Source: Mesorhizobium sp.
Lineage (GTDB): Bacteria; Pseudomonadota; Alphaproteobacteria; Rhizobiales; Rhizobiaceae
NCBI GenBank assembly: GCA_004963905.1
Contig: SUGL01000015.1
Location: 62,001-126,000 of the forward strand
Direction: 5' to 3'
DNA: 64,000 bases
In this document: positions 7,267 through 29,037 of the stretch, piece after piece
Layout: every line of letters starts with the position of its first letter
Numbering within the stretch: position 1 is the first letter of the stretch
Notes under the pieces: model-generated
The model's database searches: none
What the model was told of the DNA's origin: nothing
The model's input: the letters and a program-made list of their open reading frames with translations, nothing else
Made by a program: the position numbers and the translations under genes

Positions 7267-8436
7267 TCAGAGAGAGCGCCCGATCAGCAATTTCATGATC
7301 TCGTTGGTGCCGCCGTAGATGCGCTGGACGCGGGCGTCGCGGTACATGCGGGCGATCGGATATTCGTTCATGTAGCCATAGCCGCCATGCAGTTGAAGGC
7401 ATTCGTCGACGACTTTGCCCTGCAGGTCGGACAGCCAGTACTTGGCCATCGAGGCGGTGACCGGGTCGAGGCCGCCATCGATGTGGCGGGCGACGCAATC
7501 ATTGTAGAAGACGCGGCCGATGGTCGCCTCGGTCTTGAGCTCGGCCAGCTTGAACTGGGTGTTCTGGAAATCGATGATCGCCTTGCCGAAGGCCTTGCGC
7601 TCCTTGACATAGTCGACGGTGATCGCCAGCGCCCGCTCGACCATGGCGATGGCGCCGGTGCCGATCTGCAGCCGCTCCTGCGGCAATTGCTCCATGAGAT
7701 GGACGAAGCCCTTGCCCTCCTCGTGGCCAAGCAGGTTGGAGGTGGGCACGCGCACGTCGTTGAAGAACAGCTCGGATGTGTCGTTGGCCTTCAACCCGAT
7801 CTTGTCGAGGTTGCGGCCGCGCTCGAAGCCTTCGACCTCGTCGGTCTCCACGACGATCAGCGAGGTGCCCTTGGCGCCCTTGTCCGGATCGGTCTTGGTC
7901 ACGACGATGATCAGGTTGGCGAGCTGGCCATTGGTGATGAAGGTCTTGGAACCGTTTATCTTGTAGTGGTTGCCGTCCTTCTCGGCGCGGGTCTTGACGC
8001 CCTGCAGGTCCGAACCTGCGCCGGGCTCGGTCATGGCGATAGCGCCGATCAGCTCGCCGGTCGCCAGTTTCGGCAGCCACTTCTCTTTCTGCTCCTCGGA
8101 GCCGTAATGCAGGATGTATGGCGCGACGATCGAATTGTGCAGGCCGATGCCGAAGCCGTCGACGCCGACATGGCCGATCGCCTCGATGATGGCGCTCTCA
8201 TGCGCGAAGGTGCCGCCGGCGCCGCCGTATTTCTCCGGCATCGAAGCGCAGAGCAGGCCGGCAGCACCCGCCTTCAGCCAACTCTCGCGGTCGACCATCT
8301 CGTTCTTCTCGAACTCGTCGTAGCGCGGCGCGATCTCTTCCGCCATGAAGCGGGTCGCCATGTCGTAGAGCATGCCGACATCGTCCGCCGCCCAGGCGGG
8401 TTTCGGCAGGCCAAGAACTTCGGCTGGGTTTGTCAT
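7267..8436 (-). CDS. Acyl-CoA dehydrogenase
   Basis: The 389-residue product is a standard-length FAD acyl-CoA dehydrogenase. Visible signatures are MPEKYGGAGG, MTEPGAGSDLQGVKT (substrate and FAD contacts), NGSKTFITNG and the C-terminal LQLHGGYGYMNEYP with IYGGTNEI. It performs the first step of beta-oxidation and passes electrons to ETF. The start overlaps the stop of the upstream DUF559 gene as ATGA (8433-8436). A GGAGG sits just before it, inside the 3' end of the DUF559 frame. It is followed after 33 bases by the thiolase gene. Its substrate range is unknown. Confidence 0.92.
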   Translation of the reverse strand: MTNPAEVLGLPKPAWAADDVGMLYDMATRFMAEEIAPRYDEFEKNEMVDRESWLKAGAAGLLCASMPEKYGGAGGTFAHESAIIEAIGHVGVDGFGIGLHNSIVAPYILHYGSEEQKEKWLPKLATGELIGAIAMTEPGAGSDLQGVKTRAEKDGNHYKINGSKTFITNGQLANLIIVVTKTDPDKGAKGTSLIVVETDEVEGFERGRNLDKIGLKANDTSELFFNDVRVPTSNLLGHEEGKGFVHLMEQLPQERLQIGTGAIAMVERALAITVDYVKERKAFGKAIIDFQNTQFKLAELKTEATIGRVFYNDCVARHIDGGLDPVTASMAKYWLSDLQGKVVDECLQLHGGYGYMNEYPIARMYRDARVQRIYGGTNEIMKLLIGRSL

Positions 8437-8876
8437 GCCATTTCCTCCGTTGCGCCAGCGTCCCCCTCCCCCTTGAGGGGAGGGTGGCCGCGAAGCGGTC
8501 GGGAGGGGTCGCCCGCGACACGCTCGGCCTCACTTTTGACAAACTGCGCAACGTGCCAGGCGCTGTTGATAACATCCGGCTCATCGATCCTAAGCACGAC
8601 GTAGCCAAGCGACTGCAAATAAAAGTCACGGTTCAAATCGTGACGCTTGCCAGCCTCGGTTTCGTGCAGATCGCCGTCGACTTCCACAATGAGTTTGACC
8701 GACGGGCAAACGAAGTCGACAATATACGGGCCGATTGGCGATTGCCGCCTGAACTTCAGGCCATCCGTCTTCAGTTCCCGTAGTTCGTACCACAGCAAGG
8801 ACTCCGCCTTCGTCGCATGGATACGAAGCGAGCGAGCCTTCTGCCGCATCTCGAAACTGACCCGCGTGCGGGGCAT
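8433..8876 (-). CDS. DUF559 (Vsr-like, PD-(D/E)XK fold) endonuclease-domain protein inside an inverted-repeat element
   Basis: From the ATG at 8874-8876 the product is 147 residues. That start is chosen for an AGGAGGAGG about nine bases upstream. The frame extends to a TTG at 8909 without a good site. The DUF559 core is clear: LLWYELRE, GLKFRRQSPIGPYIVDFVC, LIVEVDGDLHETE and NRDFYLQSLGYVVLR. The Asp of YIVDF and the acidic pair of VEVDG are the expected active-site residues of a Vsr-like nuclease. The last 30 residues (DPSRPLRGHPPLKGEGD) are the translation of a palindromic repeat. Inverted copies of that repeat flank the gene. The stop overlaps the acyl-CoA dehydrogenase start. It interrupts an otherwise metabolic operon and looks acquired. 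Its biological role is unknown. Confidence 0.82.
   Translation of the reverse strand: MPRTRVSFEMRQKARSLRIHATKAESLLWYELRELKTDGLKFRRQSPIGPYIVDFVCPSVKLIVEVDGDLHETEAGKRHDLNRDFYLQSLGYVVLRIDEPDVINSAWHVAQFVKSEAERVAGDPSRPLRGHPPLKGEGDAGATEEMA
8459..8519. repeat. Left palindromic repeat flanking the DUF559 gene
   Basis: This 61-bp repeat matches the repeat at 8926-8984 in inverted orientation across almost its full length. It has an outer hairpin (CCCTCCCC, then GGGGAGGG) and an inner hairpin (GGCCGC-GAA-GCGGTC), then GGGAGGGGTCGCCCGCGAC. It lies inside the 3' end of the DUF559 coding frame and encodes that protein's tail. Confidence 0.9.
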
Positions 8877-8925
8877 TGCGGTGGTCCTCCTCCTGGCGCA
8901 CATCGTCAAAATTGGCGTCGAGATC

Positions 8926-8984
8926 GTCGCGGGCGACCCCTCCCGGCCCTTCGGGCCACCCTCCCCTCAAGGGGGAGGGGGACG
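8926..8984. repeat. Right palindromic repeat flanking the DUF559 gene
   Basis: This is the inverted partner of the 8459-8519 repeat and is 59 bp long. Read on the minus strand it is identical outside the inner hairpin. The inner hairpin here is GGCCC-GAA-GGGCC, in place of the left copy's GGCCGC-GAA-GCGGTC. Both fold, so the pairing is kept while the bases differ. It lies between the DUF559 gene and the long acyl-CoA dehydrogenase gene. Confidence 0.9.
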
Positions 8985-8994
8985 CCGAGCATTT

Positions 8995-10791
8995 CTAGAA
9001 CGCTTCCACCGGCAGCGCCATTAGCGTATCCGCGCCACTGGAAATGCGCGCGAGACGCGTCGCGGTCTCCGGCATGATCCGCTCCATGAAGAAGCGCGCC
9101 GTCACCAGCTTGCTGTCGTAGAAGGACGTAGCGCCGTTGGCGCCTTCCGCCAGCTTGGCCTGAGCGGACTTGGCCATCTGCCCCCACATGTAGCCCAGCG
9201 CGACCAGGCCGAAGAGATGCATGTAGTCGGTCGAGGCCGCACCCGCATTGTCGGGCTTGGCCATGGCGTTCTGCACCAGCCACATGGTCGCCGCCTGCAG
9301 GTCGTTCAGGCCTTTCTTCAGCGCCTTGGTGAAGGGCGCCATCTTCTCGTCGGCGCGGTTTTCCTCGCAGAACTCGCCGACTTCCTTGAAGAAGGCCTGC
9401 ACGGCGCGGCCGCCATTCTGCGCCAGCTTGCGGCCGACGAGGTCGAGCGCCTGGATACCGTTGGCGCCCTCGTAGATCATGGCGATGCGGGCATCGCGCA
9501 CGAACTGGCTCATGCCATGCTCCTCGATATAGCCATGACCGCCGAACACCTGCTGCGCCATCACGGCGTGGTCGAAGCCCTTGTCGGTGAGCACGCCCTT
9601 GACCACCGGCGTCATCAGGCCGGTGTAGTCATCGGCCGCCTGGCGGTCCTTGTCGTCGCCGGAGCGGTGCGCGACGTCTGACTTGATCGCCGTCCACAGC
9701 GCCAGCGCGCGGCCGCCCTCGTTGAACGCCTTCATGGTCATCAGCGAGCGGCGGATGTCGGGATGGACGATGATCGGATCGGCCTTCTTGTCCGGCGCCT
9801 TGACGCCGGAGAGCGACCGGCCCTGGAGGCGATCCTTGGCGTAGGCGGCGGCGTTCTGATAGGCGATCTCGGAGACCGAAAGCCCTTGCAGGCCGACGCC
9901 CAAACGGGCCTCGTTCATCATCGTGAACATGGCCTTCAGGCCGCCGTTCAGCTCGCCGAGCAGAGTGCCCTCCGCCTCGTCATAGTTCATGACGCAGGTC
10001 GAATTGCCGTGGATGCCCATCTTCTCCTCGATCGAGCCGCAGGAGAGCGTATTGCGCTCGCCGACATTGCCGGAGCCATCGAGCTTGAACTTCGGCACGA
10101 TGAACAGCGAGATGCCCTTGACGCCTTCCGGCGCGCCCTCGACGCGGGCCAGCACCAGGTGGACGATGTTGTCCGCCATGTCGTGCTCGCCGGCGGAGAT
10201 GAATATCTTCTGGCCGGAGATCCTGTAGCTGCCGTCGCCGTTCGGCACCGCCTTGGTGCGCAGCAGGCCGAGGTCGGTGCCGCAATGCGGCTCGGTGAGG
10301 TTCATGGTGCCGGTCCAGGCGCCCTCGATAAGCCTGGGCAGCCAGGTGGCCTTCTGCTCGTCCGTGCCATGGGTGACGATTGCGGCGATCGCACCCTGCG
10401 TCAGGCCGGGATACATCATCAGCGCCATGTTGGCGGAGACCATATACTCGGAGACCGCAGTATGGACGGTATAGGGCAGACCCTGGCCTCCGAACTCGGC
10501 GGGAGCCGCGAGCCCCATCCAGCCGCCCTCGCGATACTGGTCGAAGGCCTCCTTGAAGCCCTTGGGCGTGGCCACCGAGCCGTCGTCATGGCGCTCGCAG
10601 CCTTCCATGTCGCCGACGCGGTTCAGCGGATGCATGACGTTTTCGGCAAGCTTCGCGCCTTCGGCGAGAATCGCTTCGACGATGTCGGGCGTGGCGTCCG
10701 AGAAGCCCGGAAGATTGGAATAGCGCTGATAGCCGAGCACGTCGTTGAGCACGAAAAGCGTGTCCTGGACGGGCGCCCTGTAGATCGTCAT
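8995..10791 (-). CDS. Acyl-CoA dehydrogenase, long form with C-terminal extension
   Basis: The ATG at 10789-10791 ([13 protein letters not shown]) gives about 598 residues, the usual length of the long bacterial acyl-CoA dehydrogenases. The frame continues upstream across the operator but has no plausible earlier start. Signatures include [51 protein letters not shown] and [16 protein letters not shown] helical C-terminal domain of about 120 residues follows ([11 protein letters not shown] onwards). It probably oxidises longer or branched acyl-CoA esters in the cytoplasm. It is the first gene of the beta-oxidation unit and has a LiuR-like palindrome about 100 bases upstream. The DUF559 element separates it from the next catabolic gene. 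Confidence 0.92.
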
Positions 10792-10888
10792 GCCTTCCTC
10801 CACCCTTGCGGTCCTGGCCAGCCAGCAAGCTCCCGATCCAGCTCCCGGATGGGAGGCTGAGCCAATGTCGTGGTCCCGATAGCAAATA

Positions 10889-10910
10889 TTGACGTTTGCG
10901 TAAACGTCAA
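10889..10910. promoter_or_regulatory. LiuR-like (MerR) operator upstream of the long acyl-CoA dehydrogenase gene
   Basis: Perfect inverted arms TTGACGTTT and AAACGTCAA are separated by GCGT. Each strand also contains a TTGACGT-N2-RCG element of the type reported for LiuR-family MerR regulators of acyl-CoA catabolism. It lies 98 bases upstream of the acyl-CoA dehydrogenase start. The MerR gene is the next gene upstream. Confidence 0.7.
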
Positions 10911-10958
10911 CTTCGTCGCAGCCGAAAAATTTTTGGTGAACGCAGGACCGAAGACAGC

Positions 10959-10994
10959 AAAAAAGCCGCGCAGCCAAAGGCCACGCGGCTTTTC
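10959..10994 (-). terminator. Rho-independent terminator after the MerR gene
   Basis: Inverted arms AAAAGCCGCG (10961-10970) and CGCGGCTTTT (10984-10993) form a GC-rich stem with a T run on the minus strand. It lies 33 bases after the MerR stop, between that gene and the operator of the next unit. Confidence 0.75.
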
Positions 10995-28888: not shown

Positions 28889-29037
28889 TCCTTCCCCCCT
28901 TGTGGGGGAAGGTGGATTGCCGCGCAGCGGCAAGACGGATGAGGGGTGTTCCAGCGGAGTGAGACGCTGGCTTTCCCTGGAGCACCCCTCATCCGTCGCC
29001 TTCGGCGACACCTTCTCCCACAAGGGGAGAAGGGAAG
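28889..29037. repeat. Inverted pair of palindromic repeats without a gene between
   Basis: Two arms of about 58 bases face each other around a 35-45 base centre. The left arm has CCCCCCTTGTGGGGG and an inner hairpin TGCCGCGCAGCGGCA, then GACGGATGAGGGGTG. The right arm, read in reverse, has TCTCCCCTTGTGGGAGA and an inner hairpin GTCGCCGAAGGCGAC, then the same GACGGATGAGGGGTG. The architecture is that of the repeats flanking the DUF559 gene. It separates the helicase and peptidase genes. Confidence 0.85.

Follow-up and report, generated by a model that had tools for sequence, protein, structure and literature searches.

A DUF559 nuclease gene between inverted palindromic repeats in Mesorhizobium: a probable mobile element built on a Vsr-type fold

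Why should a small nuclease gene of the DUF559 family (Pfam PF04480) lie within an operon, between two inverted palindromic repeats? We met this arrangement in a stretch of 64,000 nucleotides from Mesorhizobium sp. (contig SUGL01000015.1, positions 62,001 to 126,000; hereafter the window). Our answer, to which we give a probability of about 0.62, is that the gene and its flanking repeats form one mobile element, the nuclease of which most likely acts on the palindromes. What can be read from the sequence is the bond between gene and repeats, the boundaries of the element, alleles with and without it, its different sites in close relatives and its in-frame insertions, together with the predicted fold, the conserved active-site residues and purifying selection. 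Gene and repeats behave as one movable unit, sometimes in frame in essential genes, which suggests a mobile element based on a DNA-repair-type nuclease.

The bond was measured by a bracketing score, for which the left 300 bp of a gene were compared with the reverse-complemented right 300 bp, and 40 or more was taken as positive. All six DUF559 genes of the window's own genome (7.06 Mb) are bracketed (scores 49 to 134), and the palindrome sequences differ from gene to gene; the window locus itself scores 103. In the window's phylum, Pseudomonadota, a PF04480 search was positive in 108 of 299 sampled genomes. We used 115 loci with 118 distinct DUF559 domains: 6 from the own genome, 29 chosen by the tool and 80 picked by hand down the list, passing over the weakest matches and those on short contigs. 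A score of at least 40 was reached by 82 of the 118 domains, against 4 of 563 other open reading frames (ORFs) of the same loci and none of 649 random places, in agreement with the expected enrichment of repeats at this gene and their rarity beside unrelated genes; two of these four ORFs belong to one locus (L085), where they fall within or between its duplicated DUF559 elements. True Vsr genes, which encode mismatch endonucleases, have no such bracket: 30 were fetched, and of the 27 that could be scored none was positive. Among the best 80 of at least 561 named loci, 44 of the 78 with enough flank were positive (two had too little), or 43 of 77 after dropping L337, the score of which was inflated by a run of N, compared with 1 of 229 comparison ORFs; the bracketed ones include Pseudanabaena and metagenome-assembled genomes (MAGs) of Gastranaerophilales, SAR202 Chloroflexi and Dehalococcoidales. 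A plasmid collection had 39 matching records, and 7 of 10, picked from 30 among the matches listed, were positive, including Deinococcus psychrotolerans (between paaD and paaZ), Pseudanabaena sp. ABRG5-3 and Sinorhizobium meliloti Ak57; Picosynechococcus PCC 7002 scored 29, and E. coli H240 and Sinorhizobium M103 scored 18. In Bacteroidota, to which the Bacteroidetes MAG G448 belongs, PF04480 was matched in 170 of 296 sampled genomes, and among the 30 best loci 8 scored at least 40 and 16 at least 30. The association is real, specific and wide; it is strongest in the window's phylum and weaker in that of G448. Bracketed genes thus come also from Cyanobacteriota, Chloroflexota and Deinococcota and, less often, from Bacteroidota. 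A MAG titled Rickettsia typhi also has a bracketed gene (L271, score 42), and its title looks doubtful.

The repeats can be translated as short linkers rich in Pro, Gly and Glu, so that copies can also lie within protein genes, in frame and translated with them. DUF559 was found within long open frames in Bacteroidota and some other genomes. With host profiles on both sides, it lies inside leucyl-tRNA synthetase (LeuRS; L381, L384), methionine synthase (MetH; L389) and restriction enzymes, namely HsdR (L386, L388, L392, L401), one of type ISP (L379) and one that is MmeI-like (L376); in IspE (L266) and HsdM (L072, L400) the part before the domain was assigned by profile and the part after it by eye. 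These host assignments leave out L373, L380, L382 and L395. In two genomes (G506, G556) the interrupted leuS is the sole leuS over the cut-off, its profile being covered to 233 and again from 238/239, and DUF559 is present in all 120 nearest homologues listed for the L384 protein (P0121-P0240), the named ones mostly from Flavobacteriaceae genera. The insertion in this essential enzyme looks old and inherited. Among the 120 nearest homologues listed for the L389 protein, 79 have DUF559 and 41 do not, and methionine synthases with the insert (P0242) and without it (P0303) are 98% identical on both sides. No repeat-like peptide was present at the insertion point in the four uninterrupted MetH proteins aligned; thus, gene and repeats seem to arrive together. 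Linkers such as PLPLGEDLGEG resemble translated repeats, the LeuRS and MetH copies keep the nuclease motif, and Pfam scans of 16 embedded copies, in which the insert stays in frame, gave no intein domain (introns were not searched). Two domains, GIY-YIG and DUF559, lie in frame within a single HsdR frame (L401, 175-3315; residues 251-317 and 443-547), and strong hairpins were seen only around the DUF559 part.

The window gene matches the PF04480 profile with 103.7 bits (cut-off 20.6). Its longest frame, 8433-8909, has a TTG start, and the database copy (P0001) begins at the ATG at 8876. The AlphaFold2 model has a predicted local distance difference test score (pLDDT) of 84.7, falling below 50 in residues 138-147, which are translated from the repeat. 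The nearest solved folds are 3hrl (NGO0050, an endonuclease-like protein, matched also by sequence with E 2e-36), I-Bth0305I and Vsr. Residues E22, D51, E62, D64, H68, D77 and R80 are invariant in 20 diverse members; in 46 members, the acidic residues are invariant and the histidine is nearly so. The spacing of E22, D51, D64 and H68 equals that of E73, D102, D115 and H119 of Caulobacter VsrA, as given in its report (PMC12907096). The catalytic-domain fold and the conserved acidic and histidine residues of an EDxHD/Vsr-type nuclease are both present. The median ratio of nonsynonymous to synonymous substitution rates (dN/dS) was 0.05 at both sites occupied in the genus (19 and 210 pairs; 2 pairs were saturated, and L215 and L223 were left out), which indicates purifying selection, and the nuclease is kept for what it does. 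With respect to anti-phage defence, PADLOC gave only weak matches, and 3 of 50,697 phage records had matches, all weak.

In the window repeats, the tag CCCCTCCC is followed outward from the gene by a variable hairpin and then by the terminal one, CCCTCCCC-TCAA-GGGGGAGGG. The perfect inverted arms are 8458-8489 and 8954-8985, and a 79% inverted pair is formed by 8497-8549 and 8896-8948. The sequence-only reading of this locus had placed the gene between inverted repeats of 61 and 59 bp; the inverted bracket stands, and the repeats measure 62 and 60 bp, each length having been off by one. As it described, they are identical outside the inner hairpin, and both inner hairpins pair, the left one with a single wobble (G.T on one strand, A.C on the other). 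Such compensatory change extends beyond this locus: among 55 distinct middle segments between tag and terminal hairpin in one repeat type, 82% form a stem of at least 5 pairs, a share that drops to 24% in shuffled segments and to 39% when arms are exchanged between copies. Thus, the middle hairpin changes in sequence and length, yet tends to stay palindromic. Among those repeats of the 82 bracketed loci that have a readable tag, it is turned towards the gene in 51 of 58 on the upstream side and 46 of 51 on the downstream side. When the repeats were folded as single strands with DNA parameters and compared with shuffled sequences, the gain in stability was slight for three of four strands (z -1.5 to -1.7), with z -3.0 for one.

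These repeats also occur away from the gene. One repeat type has 102 matches across the own genome. In 864 kb (12%) of this genome, a strict finder gave 47 tagged hairpins. They comprise 13 tag-inward pairs, two of them (hairpins 474 and 477 bp apart) being DUF559 elements and the other 11 having a spacing of 75-149 bp, as well as 8 tag-outward pairs (68-87 bp) and 5 singles; the counts are low estimates because repeats like those of the element on contig C222 (L003) were missed. Among the 299 genomes, the pattern of one repeat type was found in 61 of the 80 that match DUF559 strongly (E of 1e-10 or lower), compared with 17 of the remaining 219 (odds ratio 38, p 6e-31), and the reversed pattern in none. 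A profile search for Y1/RAYT enzymes (PF01797) over the whole own genome gave no match.

We compared the element with the repetitive extragenic palindromic (REP) sequences, which, according to three reports (PMC3733652, PMC3116915, PMC8266576), occur as dispersed singlets and inverted pairs, in several families per genome and variably among strains. In the "REPtrons" described there, a small enzyme gene, that of the REP-associated tyrosine transposase (RAYT, TnpA-REP), lies between inverted palindromic REP or REPIN repeats, and the marks are an HUH/Y1 enzyme and a GTAG (or CGTC) tetranucleotide at the hairpin foot. Likewise, the DUF559 gene lies between inverted palindromes, members of whose class are scattered singly and as inverted pairs, with several families per genome and variation between strains, so the resemblance proposed earlier holds in layout, with the Y1 transposase unmatched in the own genome. 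However, the enzyme has the PF04480 Vsr/EDxHD-type fold with no HUH/Y1 gene between the repeats, the tag is C-rich (CCCCTCCC in the window, C-rich elsewhere) and not GTAG or CGTC, the repeats often have two hairpins, and there are in-frame insertions in housekeeping genes. Because both enzyme class and tag differ, the DUF559 element is not a member of the REP/RAYT group. Palindromic repeats are also known from other Alphaproteobacteria, as the Rickettsia palindromic elements and the Bru-RS and RIME repeats. The Rickettsia elements are inserted in frame, and we know of no enzyme for any of these.

A mechanism may be proposed as follows. Read mostly outward from the gene, a repeat has a short C-rich tag, often a variable palindrome, and a fixed GC-rich outer hairpin. 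The small nuclease, with its fold of Vsr and EDxHD homing endonucleases, would most likely recognize this repeat as a hairpin or cruciform and nick it near the tag, and the whole unit would then be mobilized. Acting in trans, the same nuclease would mobilize the scattered gene-less inverted pairs, and it would fill the role that the unrelated HUH/Y1 enzyme RAYT has for REP/REPIN sequences. Recognition, cleavage, the chemistry of movement and action in trans are the four steps that we infer.

Alleles within the genus bear on movement. The subfamily of the window protein (at least 68% identity) was present in 35 of 146 genus genomes, and all 30 fetched loci of these close relatives keep the repeats (scores 66 to 108), 8 at the window site and 22 at one other site. 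At the window site of 45 genus genomes we recognized 9 full elements, 6 gene-less pairs, 12 single or partial repeats and 18 repeat-free alleles, so that 36 of 45 are gene-less, as the earlier suggestion of orthologous sites without the gene had foreseen; these states were assigned by eye since automatic labels were too loose, and they are not frequencies because 26 of the genomes, except G410, were picked for carrying the subfamily. G012 (152 bp) was counted as repeat-free but is uncertain, and a single, incomplete repeat is left in G350, G342 and G357. G410, a complete genome of the same species, retains a single repeat here but lacks the DUF559 gene, and anywhere in that genome the window protein finds at best a distant match (E 2.6e-20); we read this allele as a deletion from a full element because the inner flank of the repeat is retained. 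The gene-less pairs at the window site retain pieces that resemble gene ends, as judged by eye. That all gene-less pairs are internal deletions was rejected: away from the window site, no more than 6 of 11 pair spacers scored higher against DUF559 flanks than all 12 of their shuffled versions, and most of these 6 match a complete repeat pair adjoining a DUF559 gene. In a quick tree built from the two flanking genes all allele states are intermixed; since, in addition, full and empty alleles differ around the start codon, recombination may have spread the window-site alleles. Gain or loss was polarized for G410 alone, by the inner flank that it retains. The evidence for movement lies at other loci. 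Separately, in one genome, two DUF559 elements (L085 and L063, G225:C31:45900-58100) are 86% identical over 588 bp and 5.7 kb apart, and with their near-identical brackets of about 100 bp they look like a recent duplication.

Several observations weigh against the mobile element. Cleavage and movement are both inferred. The gene-less window-site alleles with repeats look like deletion derivatives, not insertions, and no target-site duplication was recognized by eye at this site, the alleles of which have diverged. The element does have defined ends at unrelated sites, homology between elements at different sites stopping within 15 bp of the outer hairpin in 152 (left) and 169 (right) of 202 pairs and extending past it in 4 and 7; however, most of the pairs are one comparison of two sites in one subfamily, so that only a handful are independent, and to these ends the alleles with and without an in-frame insert can be added. 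At a score of 40, 36 of the 118 Pseudomonadota genes and 22 of the 30 Bacteroidota loci have no bracket, and around the LeuRS and MetH insertions the DNA repeats have nearly faded (scores 14, 17 and 22). Seventeen genomes have the repeat type without a strong DUF559 match. Y1 enzymes were matched in 6 of 9 tested genomes with strong DUF559 (G054, G118, G307, G086, G251 and G284, but not G000, the own genome, G099 or G195) and in 5 of 9 tested repeat-bearing genomes without it (G168, G048, G079, G083 and G117, but not G189, G227, G290 or G313), so RAYT could contribute in many genomes. Across the 82 bracketed loci, the similarity between the repeats of a gene and the repeats of its best protein match from another genome is 57.6, compared with 37.0 (standard deviation 2.7, maximum 46.2) in 2000 permutations of repeats among the DUF559 genes of the same genome. 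Gene and repeats are passed on as one unit, but this is no proof of recognition because the two physically travel together. Over all pairs, protein and repeat similarity are weakly related (rho 0.11; within genomes 0.16, p 0.24), repeat scores being clearly higher only over 60% protein identity. Finally, PMC12907096 ties Caulobacter VsrA (CCNA_02930), a DUF559 protein, to cytosine methylation and the SOS response, which is a different proposed role. As a side observation, G227, G290 and G313 have repeats with neither a strong DUF559 nor a Y1 match, and these may point to another enzyme or be relics.

The main rival to the mobile element, which we regard as unlikely, is homing: DUF559 would be a free-standing EDxHD-type homing endonuclease that cuts gene-less repeats, recombinational repair would copy the gene in, and something else would spread the repeats. 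The frequent gene-less pairs of the same repeat class (the 11 tag-inward pairs above) could serve as targets, a complete repeat pair stands on one side of some DUF559 genes (L071, L079, L417), and a target-site duplication was not noticed. A spreader, however, is not evident in the own genome, which has no Y1 match, and the four uninterrupted MetH proteins have no repeat-like peptide at the point where the gene would have entered. In favour of homing, the nearest characterized fold is that of the homing endonuclease I-Bth0305I, which, according to PMC3943268, has several domains and dimerizes on a target of nearly 60 bp; the DUF559 protein is one small domain of 147 residues without a DNA-binding extension beyond the nuclease, and has terminal palindromes of its own. 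Much less probable is a resident mismatch-repair or stress nuclease beside ordinary intergenic palindromes that terminate or stabilize the transcript. The variation in presence within a species, the in-frame insertions in LeuRS and MetH, and bracketing that sets DUF559 apart from other ORFs and from true Vsr genes all argue against it, although the fold is Vsr-like, VsrA is linked to SOS in PMC12907096, and, given the unbracketed E. coli copy (score 18), loss of the element habit seems possible. Least probable of all is that RAYT or a DDE transposase moves the repeats with DUF559 as cargo, since, for all the Y1 matches counted above, a survey that covered Y1 but not DDE enzymes matched nothing in the own genome, G099 and G195, all of which carry DUF559 elements, and cargo leaves unexplained both the bracketing of one gene family in several phyla and a dN/dS near 0.05.

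Beyond the mobile element as such, a broader proposal can be made tentatively, as conceivable rather than probable. DUF559 elements may be a separate transposable-element class in at least five phyla, with a machinery consisting of one Vsr-fold nuclease and terminal hairpins with a guide-like tag. The nuclease would mobilize gene-less repeats, its own nick-and-repair would keep the hairpins palindromic, the linker-coding ends would allow colonization of essential genes, and orphan palindromes of rhizobia, Brucella and Rickettsia may be products. DUF559 is a common family, as the proportions of positive genomes in both phyla show, and is listed in Pfam as of unknown function. If it is the enzyme partner of palindromic repeats, it would be a candidate mobilizer for many orphan repeats in Alphaproteobacteria and beyond, and the question of what moves repeats in RAYT-free genomes would become directly testable. 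In that case, REP-like biology would no longer be confined to HUH/Y1 enzymes, there would be a second route, besides inteins, for selfish DNA inside essential proteins, and caution would be needed before a Vsr-like fold is taken as mismatch repair by default. To our knowledge, no paper links the DUF559 family with palindromic repeats, although our search left subscription journals mostly outside and is no proof of novelty.

The features of the window are collected in Table 1. Pfam assigns both flanks of the element to acyl-CoA dehydrogenases, and the stop codon of DUF559 overlaps the ATG of the downstream gene (ATGA), both in accordance with the sequence-only reading. Its further claim that the DUF559 gene supplies the ribosome site of this downstream gene failed: of the 18 repeat-free alleles in the genus, 14 have GGAGGAAAT ahead of that gene, so that it is native to the site.

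Table 1. Coordinates of the element, its repeats and other features in the window (window base 1 is G000:C66:62001, G000 being the own genome)
Feature	Position	Strand	Sequence or remark	Basis
DUF559 (PF04480) Vsr/EDxHD-type nuclease gene	8436..8876	minus	147 amino acids from ATG	PF04480 profile and predicted fold
Left palindromic repeat, downstream of DUF559	8458..8519	minus	reads outward on minus strand	sequence comparison
Left terminal (outer) hairpin	8464..8484		CCCTCCCCCTTGAGGGGAGGG on plus strand	pattern match G000:C66:70464-70484
Left variable inner hairpin	8486..8500		GGCCGC-GAA-GCGGTC	read from sequence
Left gene-proximal tag	8501..8508		GGGAGGGG on plus strand	sequence; layout common to other repeats
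Right palindromic repeat, upstream of DUF559	8926..8985	plus	reads outward on plus strand	sequence comparison
Right gene-proximal tag	8937..8944		CCCCTCCC	read from sequence
Right variable inner hairpin	8945..8957		GGCCC-TTC-GGGCC	read from sequence
Right terminal (outer) hairpin	8959..8979		CCCTCCCCTCAAGGGGGAGGG	pattern match G000:C66:70959-70979
Acyl-CoA dehydrogenase, downstream in operon, flank outside element	7267..8436	minus		frame, Pfam
Acyl-CoA dehydrogenase, upstream in operon, flank outside element	8995..10977 (longest frame)	minus		Pfam on 8998-10758
Gene-less inverted pair, REPIN-like	28890..29033		CCCTCATCCG-type repeats, tags inward, 98 bp between hairpins; layout as DUF559 brackets	strict finder

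The tag-outward pairs of the own genome form a second repeat-pair class on contigs C222, C395 and C333, with a spacing of 68-71 bp in 7 of 8. Several of them contain an internal ATTGGCGAA-like motif, and this class may be a different element, similar to miniature inverted-repeat transposable elements.

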